47,739 nucleotides of DNA from Nitrospiraceae bacterium (GTDB lineage Bacteria; Nitrospirota; Nitrospiria; Nitrospirales; Nitrospiraceae). The stretch lies in NCBI GenBank assembly GCA_900299245.1, contig OMJA01000058.1, forward strand, positions 1 through 47,739, in the 5' to 3' direction. Below, piece after piece: positions 8,967-22,720 of this stretch. Made by a program: the position numbers and the translations under genes. The stretch's first letter is position 1. Every line of letters begins with the position of its first letter. Below the pieces are notes generated by a model. That model was given only the letters and a program-made list of their open reading frames with translations. It had not been told where the DNA came from and made no database searches.

Positions 8967-11900
8967 TTACAGTTCTACGGCTATCCCGCAACGGAGAAAC
9001 AATACCTGCGCGGAAATTGTCGGAAGCTGTAAGCTCTTTTGAGCCGCCGTCTTATAGAGCGTCATCTGGATTCGGTATCGCTCGGCCCGTTCCTGCGCAT
9101 CCTTCGCCGTCACAGTGTCGGACTTATAGTCCCCAATCCAAATTCGATCGTCAAGCCGGTAGATGACATCCATGACTCCGTGCACAATCTGCCCGTCTGC
9201 ACCCGACATGGTGAATGGAACCTCGCGGCCGAGAATGGTCGAGGCAGCGAGCCGGCGGTAGGGCTCGGATTGAATGAAGTGACCGAGAATCTCCCGCAGA
9301 GAGTCCGAGAGCGCGGAAACCGGCTCCGTGTCATCGGGAACAAATCGTTGAACCGTCGCTTCAACACGATCGAGTAATGCTTGCGGGGGCAAGCGAAAGT
9401 CCCACTGTTCGAGCAAACGATGGGCCAGCACGCCGACCAACTTCCCTGCCTCACGATCCGCTCCGCCTATCGCGGGCGGATAATTGCCGGAGAGGAATTC
9501 CGCTCCCATGAGGCTGGGAGTGAGATGGACAGGTGTCCGGCGGGCACTGGCCCAGCGCTCTTCCCGTTCTCTCCATAATTGCGCAATCGTGCCGGGATCC
9601 TCCGCCCTTGGCGATGAGGCCGGTCCGGAGGACCGGCTCGACCGCTTACGGAGCGGTGCGCTGGTCGTTTGGTGCGGTATGACCGATGCGCCGACCGTCA
9701 GCGCGACCGTCTCAGGGGCGCCGACCGTCCCCTCTCCGATGTCCTGCAACATGCCCAGGACGGTTTCCCCTGATGCGCGACCGGTGACTCCACCGGACAA
9801 CACCAGCACATCCTTCGCTCTCGTCATGCCGACATAGAGCACCCGTCTTCGCTCGGCTTCCTCGCGGATCTTTCGCTTCTCATGCACGAGTACCGCACCG
9901 AAATTGTGCGCGCCGCTGAGGGACAGCCCGTAAGTTCCGCTGGACCAATCGAAGGTGACGACGGGCAGTTCCCGCTCCCGCCCGCTTCCCTGATGAAGCC
10001 CTGGCAGGACGACGATAGGAAACTCCAAGCCTTTGGCCTTGTGGATCGTCAACACCTGAATGGCATTGGACGATTCCTCGGACAAGGGACTCTCGGCTTC
10101 ATCCGGCTGCTCATCGAGCCTGGCGACCATCAGATCGACAAATCCGCTCAATGTCAGATGCGGACGATCGGATAATGCCGCCGCAGTCTGCTTGACCTTC
10201 ATCAGATTTGCCACGGCTTGCTCCCCGTGCAGTGATGCCGCGGCGATTTCCAGAATCGGAAGACGGCTGAAAATCAGTTCCAGCGCTTCAGCCAGCGGGA
10301 GGGCCGCAACCTGCCGATGAAGCCAGGCCAAATGTCCGTACAGCCGTCGTACCGCGGCAGCGTCCGGACGGTCCCATCCTTCCAGCGCGTCGCTTCGAAG
10401 AAAGTCGAAGCCGTTGATCCGGCGGAGTTCATAGAGCGCACGATCCGGCAGGCCGCCCAGTGGACTGCGGAGCACTCCGGCAAGCGCCACATGGTCATGG
10501 GGATGATCGAGCACCCGCAGCACATTCATAAGGTCGATGACTTCCTGACGGCGGTAAAAATGTTTTTCCCCCTCGATGACGTAGGGAAGTCCGTAGCGGC
10601 GCAAGGCGTCGACATAGGTGTCCGCCTGGGTCAGTTTTCGAAACAGCAAGGCAATCTGCCCGGGTTTGACCTGTGGGCGACTCAGCACGTCCTCGGCAAG
10701 CCAGCGGGCCAGGGTTTCCCCTTCCGCCCTCGTTGCACCGGCGGCATCGAATGCCCGATCGTCCTGTGCCGGAAGCGTTACCTGGAGACGCACGCCCGCA
10801 TCGAATGTCGAGAGGCGCCGCTGCGGCTGCACTTCCAGCCTGACGTTGGCCGGCTGTACCAGGGGACGGCGTTCAAACAGTCGGTCAAAGACATCGTTGA
10901 CCGGTTCCAGGACCGCTGCATCACTCCGGAAATTCGTCGTCAGCGTCTGGACCGTTCCTCCGTCCTGCTCAATCTTCTGGACGACGCGGTCGAAGGCTTC
11001 GATGTCGGCACGGCGAAAGGCATAAATCGATTGCTTGGGATCACCCACAATAAAGAGCTTGCCCGGCTCCAGGGCCATCGCTTGCCAGGTTACGGCCTGC
11101 TTCCCGAGACATTCTGAGATTGCGAGTATAAGTTCGTATTGGACCGGGTCGGTATCTTGAAACTCATCCACCAATACCGCTCGATAGTCCCGTTTGATCC
11201 GTTCGCGGATCAGCCGGTGATCCCGCAACAAGGTGCGGGCTCTGGCCAGCAGACCGTCGAAAGAGACCCATCCGTTCAGTCTGAACGAGAGGCGGATTTC
11301 AGCAACTAACGGCCCAACAAGTCTTAACGCATACTTGAAGAAAGAACCATTAACTGCCTGTAATTTAGAAGCTGTCTTAATGATTGATTCGGCCTCTGCA
11401 AATTCCTCTTTTTCCCATCCGGCGACAGAACTACCCAGATCCTTCTCCAGCCATTCACGATCGGCAGAGGGTAGAGCCTGAATTGCTACAGGCCCCTGCC
11501 CCACGATCGACATCATGAGACTCACCGCTGCCGCCAGCATATGCTCGACCTTCCGGCGCTTCGGCCGGTCATGTGCCTCGAGCAAAGCCCGGCCGCGTTC
11601 GCCGGTGTGCCGCACCCACTCCACAATCGCCGGGCTCAGCGTCTCATCCTTGAGCTGCGTCTCAACGGTCTCCAGATCGACCAGCTCACTGCAGAGTGCC
11701 CGGGTCAGACCTCGCAGATCTTCCAGCGTGGTGACCCTCAGCACCTCGCGCCAGAGATCATGACGGGTGCCCAGCCGGCTCAACTCCCGATCGACCCAGA
11801 CATCCCAGCACGCCGCAAAATGTTCATCAAAGCGAAGACCGTCGTCCTCCTGAAAAGCGGGATCGACACCGCCCTCCAGCGGGTATAGCCGCAGGAGATG

Positions 11901-12305
11901 GGCCGCAAAGCTGTGCAACGTGCCGATCTGGCTTTTCTCAAGATCGCGCAACGCCGCTGCCGCTCTGGACGCGACCTCTTCCGTCGAGAGGCCGTACCGT
12001 GTGCAGAGGTCAGCCGCAGACACGGCGCCGCCGTCCTTGGCCCGTGTCGTGTCAATCTCCGGTTGGGCCAGGAGCGTCAACCGCTCACGAAGACGAACCT
12101 TCATTTCCGTGGCGGCCTTGTTCGTGAAGGTCAAGGCCACGATCTCGGTCACCATGACAGGATCAGGATGTTTGACGAGCAGATGCACCAGTCGATTCAC
12201 GAGCAGCGTCGTCTTGCCGGTGCCGGCGCCGGCCACGACCACGACATTCCGGTCGAACGTTGTTTCAGCCAGCTCGCGCGCCAGGCGGTCAGGAATCAGT
12301 TCCAC
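8967..12305 (-). CDS. addA: UvrD/AddA-type helicase-exonuclease
   Basis: Walker A VAGAGTGKTTLLVNRL; LVDEFQDTDPVQYE; GDPKQSIYAFRRAD; C-terminal nuclease motif WIGDYKSDTV. Confidence 0.88.
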   Translation of the reverse strand: MELIPDRLARELAETTFDRNVVVVAGAGTGKTTLLVNRLVHLLVKHPDPVMVTEIVALTFTNKAATEMKVRLRERLTLLAQPEIDTTRAKDGGAVSAADLCTRYGLSTEEVASRAAAALRDLEKSQIGTLHSFAAHLLRLYPLEGGVDPAFQEDDGLRFDEHFAACWDVWVDRELSRLGTRHDLWREVLRVTTLEDLRGLTRALCSELVDLETVETQLKDETLSPAIVEWVRHTGERGRALLEAHDRPKRRKVEHMLAAAVSLMMSIVGQGPVAIQALPSADREWLEKDLGSSVAGWEKEEFAEAESIIKTASKLQAVNGSFFKYALRLVGPLVAEIRLSFRLNGWVSFDGLLARARTLLRDHRLIRERIKRDYRAVLVDEFQDTDPVQYELILAISECLGKQAVTWQAMALEPGKLFIVGDPKQSIYAFRRADIEAFDRVVQKIEQDGGTVQTLTTNFRSDAAVLEPVNDVFDRLFERRPLVQPANVRLEVQPQRRLSTFDAGVRLQVTLPAQDDRAFDAAGATRAEGETLARWLAEDVLSRPQVKPGQIALLFRKLTQADTYVDALRRYGLPYVIEGEKHFYRRQEVIDLMNVLRVLDHPHDHVALAGVLRSPLGGLPDRALYELRRINGFDFLRSDALEGWDRPDAAAVRRLYGHLAWLHRQVAALPLAEALELIFSRLPILEIAAASLHGEQAVANLMKVKQTAAALSDRPHLTLSGFVDLMVARLDEQPDEAESPLSEESSNAIQVLTIHKAKGLEFPIVVLPGLHQGSGRERELPVVTFDWSSGTYGLSLSGAHNFGAVLVHEKRKIREEAERRRVLYVGMTRAKDVLVLSGGVTGRASGETVLGMLQDIGEGTVGAPETVALTVGASVIPHQTTSAPLRKRSSRSSGPASSPRAEDPGTIAQLWREREERWASARRTPVHLTPSLMGAEFLSGNYPPAIGGADREAGKLVGVLAHRLLEQWDFRLPPQALLDRVEATVQRFVPDDTEPVSALSDSLREILGHFIQSEPYRRLAASTILGREVPFTMSGADGQIVHGVMDVIYRLDDRIWIGDYKSDTVTAKDAQERAERYRIQMTLYKTAAQKSLQLPTISAQVLFLRCGIAVEL

Positions 12306-15300
12306 GCAGTTCCTCCGTCAGGCGTTGCAGGCGCAGGCTTTTGAGTGATTTGACTTCTTCCGCGCGATAGGATCGCCACCAGGACGGCTGGTGTTCGCGC
12401 CGGCAAATGACCCGGAACTCACAGTGATCGCAGTAGGTATCGGGCAGAATGAAAAACCGTCCGGTCTGCAGTCCGCCGATCAGGAGCCGCAACGTCTGCT
12501 GAATCCGCCTGTCCGGCTCGCCGGAGAGCGCGGCGACATCGAACATCGAGCGCGCGACGGGCGGTTCCCACTGCGGGGCCAGAAAAATGAACTGCACCTG
12601 ACTTGTCGGTGGCATGCCGGGCATGAGGAGCCGGGCGTACAGAGGAGGTTGCAGACGATAGCCGCGGAGGGCGGATTGCGGCAAGTTACGGTCTTCAGGC
12701 TTGATGGCTGATCCGGTTTTGAATTTGTAGTCGACGACACGAACTGCTCCGGTGTCGCGATGGCGGTCGATCCGGTCCACCCGTCCGCGAATCTTGAGCG
12801 CGGTCGAGCTATCGGGCAGGACATCCGTGACCGAACCAGCGGCATCCATCTCGAATGAAACCGGGGCATAGGGCTCTTCGCGATAGGCCTCGGCATCCGC
12901 CGCAACCGCCGCCGCGATGAGCGACATAACCTGTTCCTTGGCCAGTTCCCACAATAAATAATAGCCGGTACGATGCCGGGCTTCGCAGTCTTGCGAAGCC
13001 CGGTTGATGGCCGACTGAATGCACGCACGTATTGTATCGTCCCCGACCGGCGTTGCCGGCCAGTCGATTGCCAGTAGCTGCTCGTAACAGCACTTCAGCG
13101 CCGCATGACAGAGCGTGCCCAGCAATGCGGCATCCGGCTCCTGGGCGACGGTCCATCGCACCGGTTCCAGCCGCAACACATCGGCGGCAAAGTATTGAAA
13201 CGGGCAGCGGGCATACCGTTCCAGCGGCGTCGGGGCCACACCGCGTTCCTGTACCGCGGACCAGTGGGCGTCCAGCGGACCCGTCAATCCGTCATAGCCG
13301 TTCAACAGAGATGCGTCGTCCTCGATTCCGGACAACGCATTCAGGGCATGCCTGAATCCGGCGGACTCGCGCCCGACCGCCTCGAGCAATGCCGCCGCGT
13401 CCTGCCCGCTCATCGCCATCCATTGTGCAAGCTCAGCCGGCGGAAGTAATCGCTGGAGCACGGGACGCTGGGCAAGCCGGTCGGTCAGCCGGCGCGGCAC
13501 CTCCTCAATCGACCGCCCGTCGAGACCGAACCGCTTGTTTACGTCGCCGAGAAACGGGGAAACCGCCAGCACGCGGCCGGCCTCATCGGCCCGCTGATAG
13601 GAAAGGTACAGCCGGTTGACGGCTCCTTGAACGAGCAGTTCAAACAAGAGCGCTTCTTCCTCGTAGCCGCCGAGCTTTTCATCAATCTTGAACCCGAGCG
13701 TCGCGTCGAGCACACGCCGATGCCGGTCTCGAAGAAAGGCATCCTCCCGGATGTATCGGGGAAACAGCTTCTCGTTCAGGCCCAGCACACACACCGCCTT
13801 GAAGGTCAGTCCGCGAGCAGCCATCGCATCAACGACCGTCACCCCTCGATGCGCGGCTTCCTCCAGCGGAATCGTCGTCCGTTCACACGTTTGAGTCAGA
13901 AGTTCAACAAACTCCGCCCAGGACATCTCCTCGCCGAGAAGATCCAGCTCTTCAAGCCGGGCCCAGACGCCGTCAATCGCCGTCCACGTCGCACGCAACC
14001 GCGTGTCGAGCGGATCGGAACCGGCCAGGTCCATCTCGCCGGAGCTGGCGAGATGGCGGCGGGCCAGATCCCGGCAGGCGGCGATCAGTTGACCGGCCGT
14101 GCCCTGTTGCGGCAACGCCAGGCAATCGGTCAGCAGCTGCGAGACGGTCTGCCACAAGAGTGCGATCACCTCCGGCGCGATATCCAACTCATCGAGCACC
14201 CGGTCCTGCTCATCGCCGTCCGCCGGGTTCAGCGTCACGCGCGCGGCCCGCTCCAACCGCCTCCACTCCTCGGCACCCCGGGTGATCTGGAGGCCCGGCA
14301 CCGCCAGTTTCCATTGCTCCGGCCGGTAGCCCTGATGACGGTGATCCAGATGATCGGGAGCGTAGAGAGGCGATGTCACGACATCCAATACCGGCGTGCG
14401 ATAAAAATCGTTCAACGGTAATGTGACCAACTGCAGCAGGACCTTGCACAGCGGCTCGTGCATCAACGGCCGTCCGGCCGTCGTCGAAAACGGGACGCGA
14501 TATCGATCGAAGACACCCGACAGGAGCGTTCGATACGGATCCAGCGTGCGGGCGACGACTCCGATGTCGTCGAACTGATATCCGTTGGTCTCGACGAGAT
14601 CGATGACTGTCCGGCAAAGTGCCGCCAACTCCTCCTCTGCTCCGATGACGCTGTGCACGGTGACCGTGATGCGTGCTTCCGCCGCCGGTTCCGGCAATCT
14701 GGTGATCATGTCGGGATGGGTCGCGCGCGGCTGGATACACCGGTCGAAAAAACGCTGTGCAAATCCCCAGGCCTTCCCGCGCTCCAGAGGAAAAAACAGG
14801 GTGGTGGGAATGCTGCTGCTGACCGCTTCAAAGAGCGACAGCTGCACCTGCGTGAGATCGTAGAACCCGTAATAGAACGCCTGCTGTACCGTGGACAGGA
14901 AGGGCGAGTGCGGCACTTCAGCGATCAGCGATTCGGCCAGATCGTCTGCGGTGCCGGCCTGCAATGTGTGCCCGACGTCCCGCACGGCGGCATGCAATGA
15001 AAACAGCGCCGTCAGCCAGGCGAGATCCTCCTCTTCAAAACACCCCTCTGCAAGACCGCGGACGGCGACCGCCGGATCGACACCGGCATCTTTCAGGTCC
15101 CGAATCGTCGACCAGAGGGCGCCCCACATACCGGAGGATTGCCCGATCTGCTGTAACGGGGCCAGATTGGACAGGCGGCTCTTCACAATCTGTTTGATCA
15201 ACTGCTGGAAGAAGACCTCGTCGACCACACGCAGCGGCGGCCGGCCAAGGCGGAGGCGCCGTTCATCCGAGAGCCGAAGCACCAACTGATGAAAGGTCAG

Positions 15301-15489
15301 GAAATGGATATTGAGGAGCGCCTGTCCGTCCAGGGTGAGGATCTTGCGGATCCTGGCAAGCAACGGGGCGGACGGCACGAGAACGAGAAGCGGTGCAAAC
15401 GGATCCGCCGCCTTTGCGCGACGAAACTGTTCGATCAGTGCGGTTTCAAGGGACGGGTGAAAGCGCCCGGCGATGACGCGAAGCATCAC
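12289..15489 (-). CDS. AddB-like PD-(D/E)XK nuclease with probable Fe-S cysteine motif
   Basis: VVDYKFKTGS nuclease motif; YARCPFQYFA plus CDHCEFRVIC (CxxCx5C) near C-terminus; overlaps the downstream helicase gene by 17 nt. Confidence 0.82.
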   Translation of the reverse strand: MMLRVIAGRFHPSLETALIEQFRRAKAADPFAPLLVLVPSAPLLARIRKILTLDGQALLNIHFLTFHQLVLRLSDERRLRLGRPPLRVVDEVFFQQLIKQIVKSRLSNLAPLQQIGQSSGMWGALWSTIRDLKDAGVDPAVAVRGLAEGCFEEEDLAWLTALFSLHAAVRDVGHTLQAGTADDLAESLIAEVPHSPFLSTVQQAFYYGFYDLTQVQLSLFEAVSSSIPTTLFFPLERGKAWGFAQRFFDRCIQPRATHPDMITRLPEPAAEARITVTVHSVIGAEEELAALCRTVIDLVETNGYQFDDIGVVARTLDPYRTLLSGVFDRYRVPFSTTAGRPLMHEPLCKVLLQLVTLPLNDFYRTPVLDVVTSPLYAPDHLDHRHQGYRPEQWKLAVPGLQITRGAEEWRRLERAARVTLNPADGDEQDRVLDELDIAPEVIALLWQTVSQLLTDCLALPQQGTAGQLIAACRDLARRHLASSGEMDLAGSDPLDTRLRATWTAIDGVWARLEELDLLGEEMSWAEFVELLTQTCERTTIPLEEAAHRGVTVVDAMAARGLTFKAVCVLGLNEKLFPRYIREDAFLRDRHRRVLDATLGFKIDEKLGGYEEEALLFELLVQGAVNRLYLSYQRADEAGRVLAVSPFLGDVNKRFGLDGRSIEEVPRRLTDRLAQRPVLQRLLPPAELAQWMAMSGQDAAALLEAVGRESAGFRHALNALSGIEDDASLLNGYDGLTGPLDAHWSAVQERGVAPTPLERYARCPFQYFAADVLRLEPVRWTVAQEPDAALLGTLCHAALKCCYEQLLAIDWPATPVGDDTIRACIQSAINRASQDCEARHRTGYYLLWELAKEQVMSLIAAAVAADAEAYREEPYAPVSFEMDAAGSVTDVLPDSSTALKIRGRVDRIDRHRDTGAVRVVDYKFKTGSAIKPEDRNLPQSALRGYRLQPPLYARLLMPGMPPTSQVQFIFLAPQWEPPVARSMFDVAALSGEPDRRIQQTLRLLIGGLQTGRFFILPDTYCDHCEFRVICRREHQPSWWRSYRAEEVKSLKSLRLQRLTEELRGTDS

Positions 15490-15593
15490 AATCCATAACG
15501 GATCGCCGCTAGTGTGTGGCGAGAGATTGCCGGATAGAGGACCAGATTGCTCACATGCATATTCCGCGGACGGCCCGACACCGTCCGGATGAA

Positions 15594-15755
15594 CTAGCCT
15601 GTCTCAGGTCCCAGCAACTCGCCGTTGCAGTCGACACAGGCCCAGTCTCCGTCGATAAATTTCATCGGGTCGCCGCAGATCGGACAATCCGGGGGCGGCC
15701 CTTTATCGTAGATCGGCAAATCCGGCAATTCAAAGTTGTCATCGTCAGCAACCAT
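15594..15755 (-). CDS. 53-aa zinc-ribbon microprotein
   Basis: Hand translation: MVADDDNFELPDLPIYDKGPPPDCPICGDPMKFIDGDWACVDCNGELLGPETG*; CxxC...CxxC. Confidence 0.7.
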   Translation of the reverse strand: MVADDDNFELPDLPIYDKGPPPDCPICGDPMKFIDGDWACVDCNGELLGPETG

Positions 15756-15779
15756 TGAGCGAGATATCCTTTTCGCGCC

Positions 15780-16043
15780 CTACTCGCGCGGTTTCATTTT
15801 CAATAACAACGCCTTTTCAGCGCTTTCCCGGCTTGGCACCCCGACGAACGTCAACCGCCCGTCGATAATCGTCGCGGGCACGGCCCGAACGGAATGACGA
15901 TTCGCTAATTCCTGACCGTCCGGAGTCGTGATATCGACTTCGCGATAGGAAAAACTATATTTCACTCGCAGTTGCTTCCACAGACTCTTGGCCGACGGGC
16001 AGGCCCCGCAGCTCGGCGACACCAACAACATGATGCTCGGCAT
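15780..16043 (-). CDS. Glutaredoxin/thioredoxin-fold small protein
   Basis: LLVSPSCGACPSAKSLWKQL (CxxC) ... SVRAVPATIIDGRLTFVGVPS. Confidence 0.85.
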   Translation of the reverse strand: MPSIMLLVSPSCGACPSAKSLWKQLRVKYSFSYREVDITTPDGQELANRHSVRAVPATIIDGRLTFVGVPSRESAEKALLLKMKPRE

Positions 16044-16282
16044 AGCGTGTCTCCAGAGAAAAATCGATGGCGGATCTTAACACCCGGCAGAATGAGGGGG
16101 CAAGTTGCGCCTCCGTGAATCAGGCCGAATCAGCGCCCCTCTGAGGGCGCCCTTTCCCGTCCGGTTTGACTTCACCTGACGGAAAGCGCAGCATGGCAGA
16201 AACTGCTCGACAAAGAGGTGTTCTGTGAATCCTTGCTAACATCGACTGGTCTTTTCATCATGCACCACTTCCGTCCTTCACG

Positions 16283-16315
16283 ACGCCCTCTTGGTTTCCG
16301 TTGCCATGAGGGCGT
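16283..16315 (+). other. Intergenic stem-loop (12 positions, one mismatch, 9-nt loop)
   Basis: ACGCCCTCTTGG-tttccgttg-CCATGAGGGCGT followed by TGTTGT. Confidence 0.5.
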
Positions 16316-16387
16316 TGTTGTCTCGGCAGCCACACCCCTTCCCATTCTATTCCCCGTGCCCTCACCATCCCTTGAAAGGAGATGTCG

Positions 16388-16612
16388 ATGAAACGTCTAG
16401 CCACCATCACAGCAACTGGGATCCTGGCATCACCGAACCTGGCGCTTGCGGTCGAACATAATGCGAGTTACCAGGGTATTGCCCAAATCTATTTTGTGTT
16501 TATCGCCGCCGTCCTGATCTACGGTGTGTACGACTCATTCGGAAAGACCGCGATGTATGTGGCAACGCCCGTTATTCTTGCCTGGTGCTATTGGATGCTG
16601 CCACCGGCCTAG
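16388..16612 (+). CDS. Small hypothetical membrane protein
   Basis: MKRLATITATGILASPNLALAVEHNASYQGIAQIYFVFIAAVLIYGVYDSFG; AAAGGAG upstream fits ATG at 16388 better than 16382. Confidence 0.65.
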   Translation: MKRLATITATGILASPNLALAVEHNASYQGIAQIYFVFIAAVLIYGVYDSFGKTAMYVATPVILAWCYWMLPPA

Positions 16613-16683
16613 AGCCCTGGCCCAGTCCGCTGCCGGCGGCATCGGAGCCTCGTAGTTCTGATGCCGTCAGCAACACCGTCGCC

Positions 16684-18246
16684 TTATCGCTTGCCGTCAT
16701 AGCCCTTTTCCTGCCACCGCTCCAGCAGTTGAATGCGTTTCTGCAGCTGCTCGGTCGTCGCTTGATCCACGCGGCCTCCGGTCCGCGCGATCAGCTCGGC
16801 GTTGAGCCGCCGATGGTCCACCCCGGTTTTCCTCGCGACCGACGCCACCAGCAGGCGATGCGTATCGCGAAGATCCTGTTTTTGTTCATGCAATGAGACG
16901 GCGATATCCCCTGCGTCGGTGCCGCCGCCCTCCCCTCGCGGATCTTCTTCTCCGATGAGCGAGTCCAGCTTCGCCACCGCATTGAGCGGCATATATTCTT
17001 TTGTGCCGGAAACGGTGACACGCCCGAACAAATCCCGCTGCCCGGCCGGCATGATGTCTTCTAGAACATGATCGCGCTCGGCTTTGATCTGCCTGGCGTA
17101 GTGCACCAGAATCGGATCTTTCGGAAGATAGAGCCAGGCGCGTTGCGGTTTGGGCATACCATCCTGCATGCGCACGAACCGCCCGACCACCTGCCGGAAA
17201 TACATCTCGGTCAGCACGTTCGTCCCGTAGACGCCGACCCGTAGCCGGGGAATGTCCACGCCTTCGCTCACCATGTTCACCGCGACCAGCCAGGCTTGCG
17301 TTTTATGACTTGAGTAGGACGCGATGGTCCGTGAAGCTCCCGGATCGTCCGATACGGCCACGACCGCCTTCGTGCCGGTGATCTTCCCGATCAACTCGGA
17401 CACCCAACGGGCATGATCCTGATCCATGGCGACGATCAGTCCCCCGGCATCGGCCTGCTCTTCCTTCCGCAACCTGGTCAATTGCTTGTGCGCATCCGTG
17501 ATGACGGGCCCCAGCCAGGTTTCCTGCAACAGCGCCGTTTTCAACCGCTCACGTTGGAGATCGAACTTCAATCCGTCTTCGAACGTGGCCGTATGCTCAC
17601 GCCCCTCGGATAGCCAGGTCAATTCGCCTTCGTAGCTGGGAAACACGATCGGCCGGCAGACGCTGTCCTTGATCGCCTCGGTATAGCCGTAGGCAAAGTC
17701 CGCGCGGCTCTCGCCCTGCTCGTAGCGAATAAATGGGATCGGATTATTGTCGGAACGGAACGGCGTGCCGGACAGAATCAGGCGAAACACGGCCGGTTCG
17801 AACGCCGTGCGCAGCGCCTTGCCCCAGTGTTTGCCGTCCCCCGCATGGTGCAACTCATCCAGAATCAGGAGTGTCGGTTTGGCCTTGCATGCCCGCTGAA
17901 AGATCGTTGGAGCAAGGCTGACCTGCTGATAGGTCACGACAGCGCCGTGATAATCGGAGGCTTCGCCTGGTTGATCGTTCGTCAGCGCCGGATCCAGCTG
18001 CAGACCGATTTTTCCGGCCGCCTCGGACCATTGGGTGCGCAGATGGTTGGTCGGGCATACGACCAGGATACGCCGCGCGGCGCCTTTTGCGAGAAAGTCA
18101 TGCGCGACGCGCAGGGCAAAACGCGTTTTTCCGGCCGCCGGCGTGGCCATGGCGAGAAAGTCCGCGGCCTGATGGCTGTGGACCGCGCTGAGGGCTCGCC
18201 GCTGCCAGTCGCGGAGCGGAGCGGTCCAAGGAGGTAACGTCTTCAT
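16684..18246 (-). CDS. DEAD/DEAH superfamily 2 helicase
   Basis: RDWQRRAL; TPAAGKTRFALR; LLILDELHHAGD; LSGTPFRSD; NMVSEGVDIPRL; RQVVGRFVRM. Confidence 0.88.
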   Translation of the reverse strand: MKTLPPWTAPLRDWQRRALSAVHSHQAADFLAMATPAAGKTRFALRVAHDFLAKGAARRILVVCPTNHLRTQWSEAAGKIGLQLDPALTNDQPGEASDYHGAVVTYQQVSLAPTIFQRACKAKPTLLILDELHHAGDGKHWGKALRTAFEPAVFRLILSGTPFRSDNNPIPFIRYEQGESRADFAYGYTEAIKDSVCRPIVFPSYEGELTWLSEGREHTATFEDGLKFDLQRERLKTALLQETWLGPVITDAHKQLTRLRKEEQADAGGLIVAMDQDHARWVSELIGKITGTKAVVAVSDDPGASRTIASYSSHKTQAWLVAVNMVSEGVDIPRLRVGVYGTNVLTEMYFRQVVGRFVRMQDGMPKPQRAWLYLPKDPILVHYARQIKAERDHVLEDIMPAGQRDLFGRVTVSGTKEYMPLNAVAKLDSLIGEEDPRGEGGGTDAGDIAVSLHEQKQDLRDTHRLLVASVARKTGVDHRRLNAELIARTGGRVDQATTEQLQKRIQLLERWQEKGYDGKR

Positions 18247-18356
18247 GGTGTCTGTAAACAGTCTACGCCGCGCGCCGCGCGGGACCGGCGTGATCGGCCG
18301 GACGAGGCTGATTGGAACAACTCATTCTGCCCAGTGCGCCTCTCCCGCCCGCACCA

Positions 18357-19460
18357 CTAATCGATCCAATCTTTTTCTTTGAGCTTCCTCGGCAGATACT
18401 TTTTGGTTAGATACTGAAAGTCCTTGTTCGCCAGCGAGTCGAGCTCGTATTTCAGTCCGCTGCTCAGCATGCGCTTGATCTCCGCCTGCCAGGCCGGCTT
18501 CTGGAACCACTGGTAGTTCATCAGCTCTTTCGCCCGCGCAATATCTTTCTCGTTCAACTTGATCCCGACGTTCCTCGGCAGTTCGTACCGCTCGGGGTCC
18601 GCGCTTGAGAGGCCGATAAACTTGGCTTTGGGAATGGCCATGCGCTGGCTCTCGAAGGCCAGATTGATGGAGCCCTGCTTGATCACGGAATAAATGTAGT
18701 ACCCCCAGGGATCGTTGTCGACCAGCACATACACCGGTAGTTTGTGCTCTTCGTGAAGCCGTCGCGCCAGGCGGCGGACTCCGCGCGGCGGCTGGCCGTT
18801 TCCGGTCAGCAGGACGCAGTTATACCGCCGCCAGAATTTATCCTCAGACAACCGGTTCCACTGGGTACCTTTTTCGACCAGCAGCACGAAGTCGGCGGTG
18901 CAGCGGCGGATCTCCAGATACTCCGGCTCGACAATGGACGGTACCGAATAGCCGCCTTTCCCGAGCTTGGCGCAATCCACCCGGTCCCCGTCATCGCCGA
19001 ACACGACCGGTCCGACGATGCTTCCGCTGTTCTCCGCCCGTACATGCAGCTCCTCGCGCAGGGCCGCCAGCGACACTTCCAGATCCTCGATGACGGGATC
19101 GGACTCATCCTGCGTGTCGAACGTATTTTCGTGTGAGTCGGCGATCGTATGCTTGGTGCGGTAATAGATTTCTCGAAGCGAGGTGGTGAGGTCCGCGCGC
19201 TGCAATTCGGAGAGGGCATCGGCGACCAGGACGGTCTGCATAAACTTCTTGGCCATGCCGACGTTGAAGAAGGAGCGCGCCTGCTTCTTGCTCCCCATTT
19301 CAATGAGCCCCTTGCGCTCATTGAACGAGACGTTTGAGAGTGCCCGAATGGGAATCGCAAATGTCGGGTCTTTCGACCGGTCCGCCGCCGCAATGACGAT
19401 GTCGGCCAGGCCGATCAACTTTTTCTCAACCGACGTCGTCTTTTTCTGTTTGCTCGCCAT
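18357..19460 (-). CDS. top6A: DNA topoisomerase VI subunit A (Spo11-like)
   Basis: Catalytic Tyr motif TSLREIYYRTKHT; Toprim motifs LLVEKGTQW and VLVDNDPWGYYIYSVIKQGS. Confidence 0.93.
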   Translation of the reverse strand: MASKQKKTTSVEKKLIGLADIVIAAADRSKDPTFAIPIRALSNVSFNERKGLIEMGSKKQARSFFNVGMAKKFMQTVLVADALSELQRADLTTSLREIYYRTKHTIADSHENTFDTQDESDPVIEDLEVSLAALREELHVRAENSGSIVGPVVFGDDGDRVDCAKLGKGGYSVPSIVEPEYLEIRRCTADFVLLVEKGTQWNRLSEDKFWRRYNCVLLTGNGQPPRGVRRLARRLHEEHKLPVYVLVDNDPWGYYIYSVIKQGSINLAFESQRMAIPKAKFIGLSSADPERYELPRNVGIKLNEKDIARAKELMNYQWFQKPAWQAEIKRMLSSGLKYELDSLANKDFQYLTKKYLPRKLKEKDWID

Positions 19461-19465
19461 AGCGA

Positions 19466-21496
19466 TTATTTCTTTCCCCGGGGTGCGGCTTTCTTCACCG
19501 GTTTCGCGGGTGCTCCCTTGGGCTGCGTTCCCCTGCGTTCTCTATCGGCAGCCACCGGCTTCTGCGCCGTCCTGCCCTTTTTGCCTGTCGGAGCAACGGG
19601 CTCGGTCTCACGCTGAATGACAGAAGCCGCCTGTTCGGCCGGCGCGACGGACGCCTGAACCTGCGTGGCCAGTTCAACCTCGCCTTCCACTCCGTCGGTG
19701 GTCACGATAATCGAATGGGGCAAGCCTTCCGGCCCTGCGCCGGTTTTACCCAGCGCCTCATCGGTCTTCAGACCGCCAGTGCGGGAGGTGGCGATTTTCT
19801 GCAGCTGGGCTTTCAATTTCTCTGTCTGCAGCGTGCCCCCCTTGAGGTGATTGCAGGCTTCCACGACTTCTTCGATATAGAGCTCGAAAATGTTACGCCG
19901 CCGGAATTCGCTGGCCGCGCGTTCCCGCCGCCGCAAAAACAACCCCAGTCGACGGCCGCACTCTCGCAGCGCCAGCGTGATTTCCTTCTGAATCTCATCG
20001 TAGTCCGCGATGGCTTCCTTGGATTCGCTCGTAAACGGCACCCAGACGGACGCCATATGCACGAAGATGACCATCGGTCCGCCCGGCAAAGCGCCGCGGG
20101 ACTGCGTGACGCCGTAATTCTTCCATGAGGTGCCGAGCACTGCTTTGAACGTCGAGCAGGCGGATTGCTGATAGAGCAACGGCACCCGGTTTGCGTAGCG
20201 GATGACGCGCGCGAGTTCGGAGTCCGTCTCCTCCTCCTCGCCTTCCGCTTTCGGCATGGCGGGCTGTTTGGGCTTAGTCTGATCTTCCGGCCGATGCCCG
20301 TACGCGAGTCCGACTTCAATGATAAACGGGTTGCCCCGATAGACTGCCGGCGGCCGGCTTACTGCCGTATAAAACTCGCCTTTAATCTGCTTATACAGCC
20401 CCGAGAGAATGGCTCGTTCTCCGATCGGCGAGATGCAGTTCGTCGGCGGCGCCATGATTTTGGTGTTTTGAACGGTCCGATAGAGTACTTCGGCGGCCGG
20501 CCCTTTCAGATCCCGCGGTTTCATGCCGGGAGAGATCTTGGCCGCCTTGCACATCTCGTCCGCCAGTTGAGGCGACACGCGGCAGAAGTCCCCGGCAAGA
20601 AATCCGGAGACCGTCTGGCTCTTCGTGTCCTGCAGCATCTTCAGCAACATGCCGAATTCAATTCCGTAGGGATGCGGCTTGATCTCGCGCGGAGAGGGCG
20701 GCAGTTCGTGATACGTCCGGGGATACTCTTTCGCCTCGCCTTCCGGAGGATAGTAGATCAGGCGCACATGCGGATTGGCGATGGAGGTCTGCTCCAGCCA
20801 TTCGTCGACGGAGGCGCGGCCCTTTTGATATTTCCCCTCGACCTCGATCGAAACTTGCGTGCCTTGCGGCTGGTTCCATTCGATCTGCTTGTTTTCATGC
20901 ACCAGCGGCTCGTTCTTCTTCGTGTCGATCTGCACTTCGAAGTAATGGGCGGCCGCCTTCGGGCCGGTGCGGGAAATAATCTTGACCGGCTTCCCGGTCG
21001 TCAGCTGCCCGTACATGCCTGCCGCCGAAATGCCAATGCCCTGCTGTCCCCGGCTCATCCGCATGCGATGAAACTTCGAGCCGTAGAGCAACTTCGCAAA
21101 GATCCGCGGGATATGCTGGCGGACGATACCGGGGCCGTTATCCGTGACGGTGATGCGAAATCTGGAGGCCTGACTGGGAGCGACCGGCTCCCCGTTCGAG
21201 ACGACCTCAAGACGGACGGTGACTTCCGGAAGAATCCCGGCTTCCTCACTGGCGTCGAGCGCGTTGTCGACGGCTTCCTTCACGCAGGTCAACAAGGCTT
21301 TTCGAGGATTGTCGAATCCGAGCAGATGCCGGTTTTTCGTAAAGAACTCGGAAACGGAAATTTCCCGCTGACGCGCACCCATCTCCGCGGCTGTCACCTG
21401 TTGCACGGGTTTGGCGACCGTCTTCTTCGGATCGGCTGATTCGGGAGCGGGCTGAGCCGCAGAAACGGACTTCGAAACGGAACGCGCGATGGCCAT
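19466..21496 (-). CDS. top6B: DNA topoisomerase VI subunit B (GHKL ATPase)
   Basis: EFFTKNRHLLGFDNPRKALLTCVKEAVDNALDASEEAG; VTDNGPGI; SRGQQGIGISAAGMYGQLTTGKP; 5-nt gap to top6A; Lys/Arg-rich C-terminal tail. Confidence 0.95.
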   Translation of the reverse strand: MAIARSVSKSVSAAQPAPESADPKKTVAKPVQQVTAAEMGARQREISVSEFFTKNRHLLGFDNPRKALLTCVKEAVDNALDASEEAGILPEVTVRLEVVSNGEPVAPSQASRFRITVTDNGPGIVRQHIPRIFAKLLYGSKFHRMRMSRGQQGIGISAAGMYGQLTTGKPVKIISRTGPKAAAHYFEVQIDTKKNEPLVHENKQIEWNQPQGTQVSIEVEGKYQKGRASVDEWLEQTSIANPHVRLIYYPPEGEAKEYPRTYHELPPSPREIKPHPYGIEFGMLLKMLQDTKSQTVSGFLAGDFCRVSPQLADEMCKAAKISPGMKPRDLKGPAAEVLYRTVQNTKIMAPPTNCISPIGERAILSGLYKQIKGEFYTAVSRPPAVYRGNPFIIEVGLAYGHRPEDQTKPKQPAMPKAEGEEEETDSELARVIRYANRVPLLYQQSACSTFKAVLGTSWKNYGVTQSRGALPGGPMVIFVHMASVWVPFTSESKEAIADYDEIQKEITLALRECGRRLGLFLRRRERAASEFRRRNIFELYIEEVVEACNHLKGGTLQTEKLKAQLQKIATSRTGGLKTDEALGKTGAGPEGLPHSIIVTTDGVEGEVELATQVQASVAPAEQAASVIQRETEPVAPTGKKGRTAQKPVAADRERRGTQPKGAPAKPVKKAAPRGKK

Positions 21497-21639: not shown

Positions 21640-21797
21640 TAGGGTGGGAGGAGCACGCACCTACCGAGGAGTCAGTAGGTACGACGGAGATCTCGGGAGA
21701 ACTTTAGGCTTCCCAGTACAAGCTGGTCCTGCACACCGTTCTCACACTCAACCCCCTTATGAACCATATTCCCTCGGGGCGTTAACTCCCCCCACCC
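21640..21797 (-). ncRNA. ssrS: 6S RNA
   Basis: Minus-strand RNA GGGUGGGGGGAGUUAACGCCCCGAGGGAAUAUGG...GAGAACGGUGUGCAGGACCAGCUUGUACUGGGAAGCCUAAAGUUCUC...CUCCUCGGUAGGUGCGUGCUCCUCCCACCC. 12-bp closing helix (one G-U), inner helices ACGC/GCGU and CCGAGG/CCUCGG, large central bubble, terminal stem GAGAAC/GUUCUC; GGUGxGCA...GAAGCCUxAAA resembles the conserved 6S apical region. Confidence 0.85.
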
Positions 21798-22000: not shown

Positions 22001-22460
22001 CACGAATGATTATTTTGTCTGAGGGTGCAATTTTTCTCACGGGTAGAAAGAAAAAATATTTCACAACAGTCGTATTTCCCTTCATTTTTTTTACACGAGT
22101 CTGAATTTGCCGGACCCCTTCAAAAACCAACCACTTCCGCTGCGGACACTGTGATTTATGATGAGGCCACACCAGACTCCCCAACTTCTGTGGATAACTC
22201 TGTGCATGAGTATGATCCTGTCGTTGAAATGGCTGATTTCAACAGTCCCATGAGCAGACTGCCTAATAAATAGGCATTGTGCCGTCGTCGGCCGACCCCC
22301 CATATTTTGCGGCTTGACGGATGATTCTTTTTCTTTTCCACAATCCCTGGGTAGAGATGGATTCAAGAGGGATCGGCTGACCGAACCCATTTTGTCTAGA
22401 GCCGAATAGCCTCAAGCTACCAGGACTTATGCACAGCGATCAGCTCTCACTGTGGAGAAA
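22001..22460. other. Candidate replication origin / DnaA-box cluster with AT-rich segment
   Basis: Exact TTWTNCACA: 22189-22197 (minus, TTATCCACA), 22334-22342 (plus, TTTTCCACA), 22427-22435 (plus, TTATGCACA). One mismatch: 22057-22065 (plus, TATTTCACA), 22201-22209 (minus, TCATGCACA), 22451-22459 (minus, TTCTCCACA). 22001-22100 is about 34% GC by hand count. Confidence 0.65.
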
Positions 22461-22543: not shown

Positions 22544-22720
22544 CTATTTTTTACGATAGATGTTCAATCCGACTTTCTCTTCCCGGCCTGGAATCGTCAC
22601 ATTGCCTTCAGTGGAGGCAATGATCGTGGTTTTTCCTGATGCGGATGGACCGAACTCCTTGGACAAATCCACCTTGATCGTCAGCGTGGTTCCCTCGACG
22701 GTCAACTCAACATTTTTCAT
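22544..22720 (-). CDS. 58-aa conserved-looking small protein
   Basis: Hand translation: MKNVELTVEGTTLTIKVDLSKEFGPSASGKTTIIASTEGNVTIPGREEKVGLNIYRKK*; SD GGAGGAA upstream. Confidence 0.8.
   Translation of the reverse strand: MKNVELTVEGTTLTIKVDLSKEFGPSASGKTTIIASTEGNVTIPGREEKVGLNIYRKK

Follow-up and report, generated by a model that had tools for sequence, protein, structure and literature searches.

A multi-copy intergenic element of Nitrospirales with the core geometry of DnaA-reactivating sequences

A conserved DnaA-box cluster next to top6B

The stretch of DNA analysed here (47,739 nucleotides, hereafter the window) is contig 58 of a 3.0-Mb Nitrospiraceae genome assembled in 351 contigs. Between top6B and the gene for a conserved protein of 58 amino acids, it contains a cluster of DnaA boxes (Table 1), which over 20 relatives retain at the same locus. 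The three exact matches to TTWTNCACA lie where the original prediction had placed them, at 22189(-), 22334(+) and 22427(+), and are the only ones in the whole window, for which 1.2 matches are expected from dinucleotide shuffles. Genome-wide, this 9-mer barely exceeds its reversed control (80 versus 65 occurrences), so that the signal resides in the clustering and not in the count. The cluster is thus real and non-random. Among the one-mismatch sites also listed in that prediction, those at 22201 and 22451 belong to the conserved element, the former with 7/9 identity to TTATCCACA, whereas the site at 22057 falls outside its conserved part.

Table 1. Features of the DnaA-box element and its flanking genes. 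Coordinates refer to the window; offsets are counted from box II.
Feature	Coordinates	Strand	Remarks
top6B (DNA topoisomerase VI subunit B)	19466..21496	-	Flanking gene; PF09239, E 1.7e-54
Whole DARS-like element	22175..22459		Profile R1 match at 22177-22316, 83.7 bits, E 1.2e-23
Degenerate DnaA box I, GACTCCCCA	22175..22183	+	5/9; 14 bp before box II
DnaA box II, TTATCCACA	22189..22197	-	9/9; exact consensus match
DnaA box III, TCATGCACA	22201..22209	-	7/9 to TTATCCACA; 12 bp past box II
Palindrome CTGCCTAATAAATAGGCAT	22259..22277		Consensus TTGCCTANTTTTTAGGCAT; about +72
CCCCCCATATTTTGCGG, degenerate copy of the CCACNA...TAGTGG palindrome	22296..22312		+107; slot of the IHF site in E. coli DARS2
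DnaA box TTTTCCACA	22334..22342	+	+145; same motif in close relatives, TTTTCCACAATC
Right-hand DnaA box TTATGCACA	22427..22435	+	+238
DnaA-like box TTCTCCACA	22451..22459	-	Faces the right-hand box
Gene for conserved 58-aa protein	22544..22720	-	Flanking gene; no Pfam match

The element adjoins a minus-strand block (8967-21496) that encodes an AddB-like nuclease, a helicase and both topoisomerase VI subunits. In addition, the long gap upstream of top6B likely harbours a 6S RNA (ssrS) gene at 21686-21756 on the minus strand; the Rfam match is below threshold (31.3 bits, E 1e-4), its apical half is conserved, and members of the 6S RNA family occupy the equivalent place in two other genomes, G069 (L181:5352-5426, 40.4 bits) and G022 (L182:5758-5831).

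Position relative to the replication origin

The cluster had been put forward as a candidate chromosomal replication origin, with the AT-rich tract adjoining it as a possible unwinding element. This tract is real, since 22001-22100 has 34% GC and only 0.03% of 100-bp windows are as low or lower; however, the matching stretch in 22 relatives has 40-62% GC, and therefore the tract does not represent a conserved unwinding element. As had been stated, dnaA is missing from the window; a fragment of it is found on contig C126.

No GC-skew switch was detected across the 47.7-kb window. Because the genome itself is fragmented, skew was sampled in closed relatives, of which G075 (4,125,728 bp, dnaA at position 334) was preferred over G022, whose skew is less clean and shows several switches (rearranged or misassembled). 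In G075, the sampled skew keeps a positive sign over the first 1.85 Mb or so and is negative between 2.05 Mb and a point close to the end of the chromosome, as is usual when replication starts at dnaA. The elements of this chromosome are found in five places, at 0.569, 1.033, 1.424 (a weak copy), 2.094 and 3.134 Mb, that is, 0.57-2.09 Mb away from the skew switch at dnaA. Likewise, the locus in G022 lies 1.11 Mb from dnaA and skew is negative on both of its sides, with no switch there. Skew, distance to dnaA, the presence of several copies per chromosome and the unconserved AT tract together refute the proposed origin, whose likelihood we regard as negligible.

A family of dispersed copies across the order

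BLAST searches with the locus retrieved matches in relatives and, at other positions of those genomes, further short copies. When aligned, the copies show near-identical islands separated by freely diverging background, in the order TCCCCAnCTTCTGTGGATAAnnnTGTGnAtAAG, TTGCCTAnTTTTTAGGCAT, CCACnA...TAGTGG, a T-rich motif and TTATnCACAG. A sequence-only profile of 144 positions built exclusively from Nitrospira copies (R1) matched 77 of 79 genomes of the genus, including all 49 good ones, and 188 of 197 genomes of the order (146 of the 150 good genomes, 30 of 35 genera). In the sampled phylum outside the order, which served as negative control, just 17 weak matches appeared in about 197 genomes. 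Chromosomes carry from one to nine copies, distributed over both arms, and the genome of the window has two strong copies (the window locus and one on contig 118) plus weaker ones.

The copies of seven genomes can be grouped into recurring, orthologous and mostly convergent intergenic locus types. The element lies between top6B or an OmpA-type gene and the 58-aa gene, between modC and a gene for an HTH-S24 (LexA-like) repressor, between a redoxin gene and a small ORF that both point towards it, between an SNase gene and an OmpA-type gene in the same convergent arrangement, downstream of a CBS gene, or facing radC in a convergent intergenic region (ModC, OmpA and CBS were assigned by eye from sequence). 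Measured from dnaA, the copy beside the 58-aa gene lies at a distance equal to 10-16% of the genome in G018, G019, G040, G073 and G075, which is not the case in G022 and G069. One copy (G073:C2:25702-25836) sits apart on a contig of 273 kb, possibly a plasmid.

These arrangements bear on the possibility that the element is a transcriptional control region through which DnaA regulates a neighbour (top6B, the 58-aa gene, the LexA-like S24 repressor gene, radC or others). Although several neighbours act in DNA metabolism and one locus type lies upstream of the HTH-S24 repressor gene with its own promoter, the neighbours change while the element stays and most locus types are convergent, which makes a promoter role unlikely and led us to discard it; regulation of neighbouring genes is, overall, quite improbable. 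A small MITE-like mobile repeat or a non-coding RNA gene would account for the multiple copies, the length of about 285 bp and the converging ends. Nevertheless, the copies of diverged species occupy orthologous positions, the closed genomes show recurring locus types and not variable insertion sites, only motifs resembling protein sites are kept, and the element has no match in Rfam, so that this explanation appears extremely improbable. A phage link was also discarded, as the 22 pattern matches in viral contigs that were inspected were mostly TTATCCACA repeats or clusters without the palindromes.

The core has the spacing and orientation of DARS

DARS are defined by three DnaA boxes with identical spacing in DARS1 and DARS2 and with box I reversed (PMC5742627). 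In the window, box I(+) is followed by box II(-) at 14 bp and by box III(-) at a further 12 bp, exactly the spacing of E. coli DARS1, TTATCCACT(+) -14- TTATCCACA(-) -12- TAATACACA(-); DARS2 (TTATCCCAG -14- TTATCCACA) has the same offsets as DARS1. This 14/12 spacing, with box I in the reverse orientation to the other two boxes, is found in the window and in the family: among 86 Nitrospirales elements, the top offset for a plus-strand box upstream of box II is -14 (5.6/9 versus a background of 2.4). No core of the quality seen in the window arose by chance in 200 windows simulated with a first-order model. Box I is the degenerate member of the trio, and its half-site TCCCCA is nearly invariant in copies of the genus, with TCCACA, CCCACA or GTCACA in a few copies of other genera. 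Given the 5/9 match in the window and TCCCCA in nearly all genus copies, DnaA may bind box I weakly.

A pattern taken from boxes II and III of Nitrospira, with box I left out of the search, gave at least 119 matches in the genome collection, where about one was expected by calculation, and many of them were beta- or gammaproteobacterial. In these proteobacterial matches, box I (TTATCCACA) emerges at -14 even though it had not been searched for, and across 104 proteobacterial stretches -14 is again the unique best offset (6.5/9 versus about 2.4). Their neighbours include priA and hemE, xseA and exbB, and, in Shewanella olleyana, rppH and mutH, the last pair being the DARS2 locus. Run on 343 kb, the Nitrospira-only profile detected DARS1 and the DARS2 core of E. 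coli with E-values of 0.0065 and 0.0073, respectively; the scores on these E. coli loci are modest and depend mostly on boxes II and III.

Several observations concern these proteobacterial sites themselves. The rppH-mutH gap of E. coli K-12 (L347:4136-4170) contains a second I-14-II-12-III core (7/9, 8/9 and 7/9) about 316 bp to the left of the DARS2 core; this second core is possibly equivalent to the dispensable boxes IV-VI of DARS2. In Undibacterium, Herbaspirillum and Janthinobacterium (Oxalobacteraceae), the interval from exbB-type genes to xseA carries DARS-like cores in tandem, up to about nine per array (L213, L215, L216, L223 and L239). Besides, in L299 and similar Pseudomonas-like matches, boxes II-III lie directly upstream of TATAATGCGCC, which resembles an rRNA promoter, suggesting a possible DnaA contact at rrn promoters.

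Two palindromes and a right-hand box at fixed distances

Beyond the core, a TGCCTA-N5-TAGGCA palindrome starts at +71 to +73 in 82 of the 86 Nitrospirales elements. Since its arms vary without strict compensation, it is read as a putative DNA site and not as an RNA hairpin, and an RNA reading was rejected on these grounds together with the lack of any Rfam match in the element. A second palindrome, CCAC...GTGG, starts at +107 to +109 and occupies the slot in which E. coli DARS2 has its IHF site. A DnaA box of at least 8/9 is present between +200 and +250 in 86% of the elements, compared with 2% in shuffles, and is positioned at about +229 to +238.

The slot at about +105 separates the Nitrospirales elements from the DARS2 subtype, which is characterised by an IHF site at a fixed distance from the core and also by the Fis sites FBS2-3, for which the consensus is very loose. 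Whereas an IHF consensus is found at +104 to +107 in 41 of the 104 proteobacterial matches, and at +105 in E. coli DARS2, the consensus WATCARNNNNTTR was found at +104 to +107 in none of the 86 Nitrospirales elements. Since genes for IHF proteins of both the alpha and the beta type are present, IHF could still operate at sites that deviate from the consensus.

The element resembles DARS1 (bioD-uvrB) in its core arrangement, in box II (TTATCCACA), in its intergenic location and in having no IHF consensus at +105, but box I reaches 8/9 in DARS1 and is degenerate (TCCCCA) in Nitrospira, neither the two palindromes nor the conserved right-hand box had a visible counterpart in DARS1, and DARS1 is present in one copy versus several in Nitrospira. 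With DARS2 (rppH-mutH) it has in common the distances within the core, a site of architectural type roughly 105 bp from box II and additional boxes to the right; the slot itself holds the IHF consensus AATCAGAGAATTG in E. coli and the CCAC...GTGG palindrome in Nitrospirales. The beta- and gammaproteobacterial elements (priA-hemE, xseA-exbB, mutH) have the same core geometry and, in 14 of 105 cases, a GCCTA...TAGGC palindrome at +71/72, but differ in their intact box I, in the IHF site at +104 to +107 (about 40%) and, in Oxalobacteraceae, in the tandem arrangement at xseA.

DnaA, its regulators and the proposed function

DnaA is otherwise canonical, with a normal box-reading motif (GGKDHTTIIHA), and its gene is followed by dnaN. 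Only one strong PF00308 gene was found per genome tested; weak extra matches in a few genomes look like transposon ATPases. About 17 ORFs of 269 aa with equal weak PF00308 scores on contigs C1-C7 of G018 probably encode an IstB-type transposon ATPase. Hda, a protein that would match PF00308, therefore seems to be missing, and with it an E. coli-type RIDA that makes ADP-DnaA, a point that counts against a DARS-like role.

Titration-type sites have been proposed for B. subtilis DnaA-box clusters and for E. coli chromosomal boxes, and this is the main rival explanation: a DnaA-titration or general box-cluster site would bind DnaA and lower the free protein, with no nucleotide exchange. The several strong boxes per copy, the one to nine copies on both arms and the apparent lack of Hda are in line with titration, which is supported in E. 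coli (PMC12371093). However, titration needs box number only, whereas these elements preserve orientation, the 14/12 spacing and the fixed distances of two palindromes from one genus to another; we consider it unlikely, though it deserves more weight than the other rivals. The original prediction had offered a DnaA-titration or DnaA-regulated locus as its fallback, which comes near to what is strongly supported, namely a conserved control element with DARS-core geometry and putative DnaA binding.

Both datA and the B. subtilis clusters are dispersed, intergenic groups of DnaA boxes that tune initiation. The elements share this arrangement, and differ in that neither datA nor those clusters are known to have the I-II-III core spacing, a distinction drawn from their general descriptions. 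A datA-like site would stimulate hydrolysis of DnaA-bound ATP and restrain initiation, and could make up for the missing Hda; the intergenic position of the boxes and the putative sites for bending or partner proteins would suit such a role. Nonetheless, the core fits DARS geometry, in a comparison confined to DARS, and datA requires an IHF site, of which the element has no consensus-type example. A datA-like function is accordingly improbable, if slightly less so than control of neighbouring genes.

With a probability of roughly 0.6, the locus is a DARS-like (DnaA-reactivating-sequence-like) chromosomal control site. We use DARS-like rather than DARS because activity is predicted from geometry, no IHF site of the DARS2 type is present and box I has degenerated. 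On this reading, DnaA, probably in its ADP form, would assemble on boxes I-II-III, with box I facing II and III; proteins at the two palindromes may bend or loop the DNA, and there may be contact with the converging right-hand boxes. The complex would then alter DnaA and promote nucleotide exchange with release of ADP, or otherwise set DnaA activity, thereby helping to time initiation at the distant oriC beside dnaA. A bolder version, which we hold only tentatively, is a multi-copy DARS system of up to nine sites per chromosome that operates without Hda and in which a dedicated palindrome-binding protein, recognising CCACTA...TAGTGG and/or TGCCTA-N5-TAGGCA, would replace IHF as activator.

Implications

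The DARS2 core has been stated to be conserved specifically in E. coli and its gammaproteobacterial relatives, and Fis has been described as gammaproteobacterial (PMC4245941); none of the literature consulted links DARS with Nitrospira. DARS having so far been described mainly in gammaproteobacteria, the best reading of the sequence is that Nitrospirales carry a new, putatively DARS-like form free of IHF sites, which suggests that DARS-type replication timing is far commoner than current descriptions indicate. A version present in multiple copies throughout an order of Nitrospirota, along with the betaproteobacterial sites, would make DnaA reactivation a widespread process, would help to establish by comparison which parts of DARS are important, and would indicate a protein in the role of IHF. 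Should the replacement of IHF prove true, these bacteria would have a differently wired DnaA cycle, and DARS would be an ancient regulatory element shared across phyla. For very slow-growing nitrifiers, the element provides a concrete handle on replication timing.
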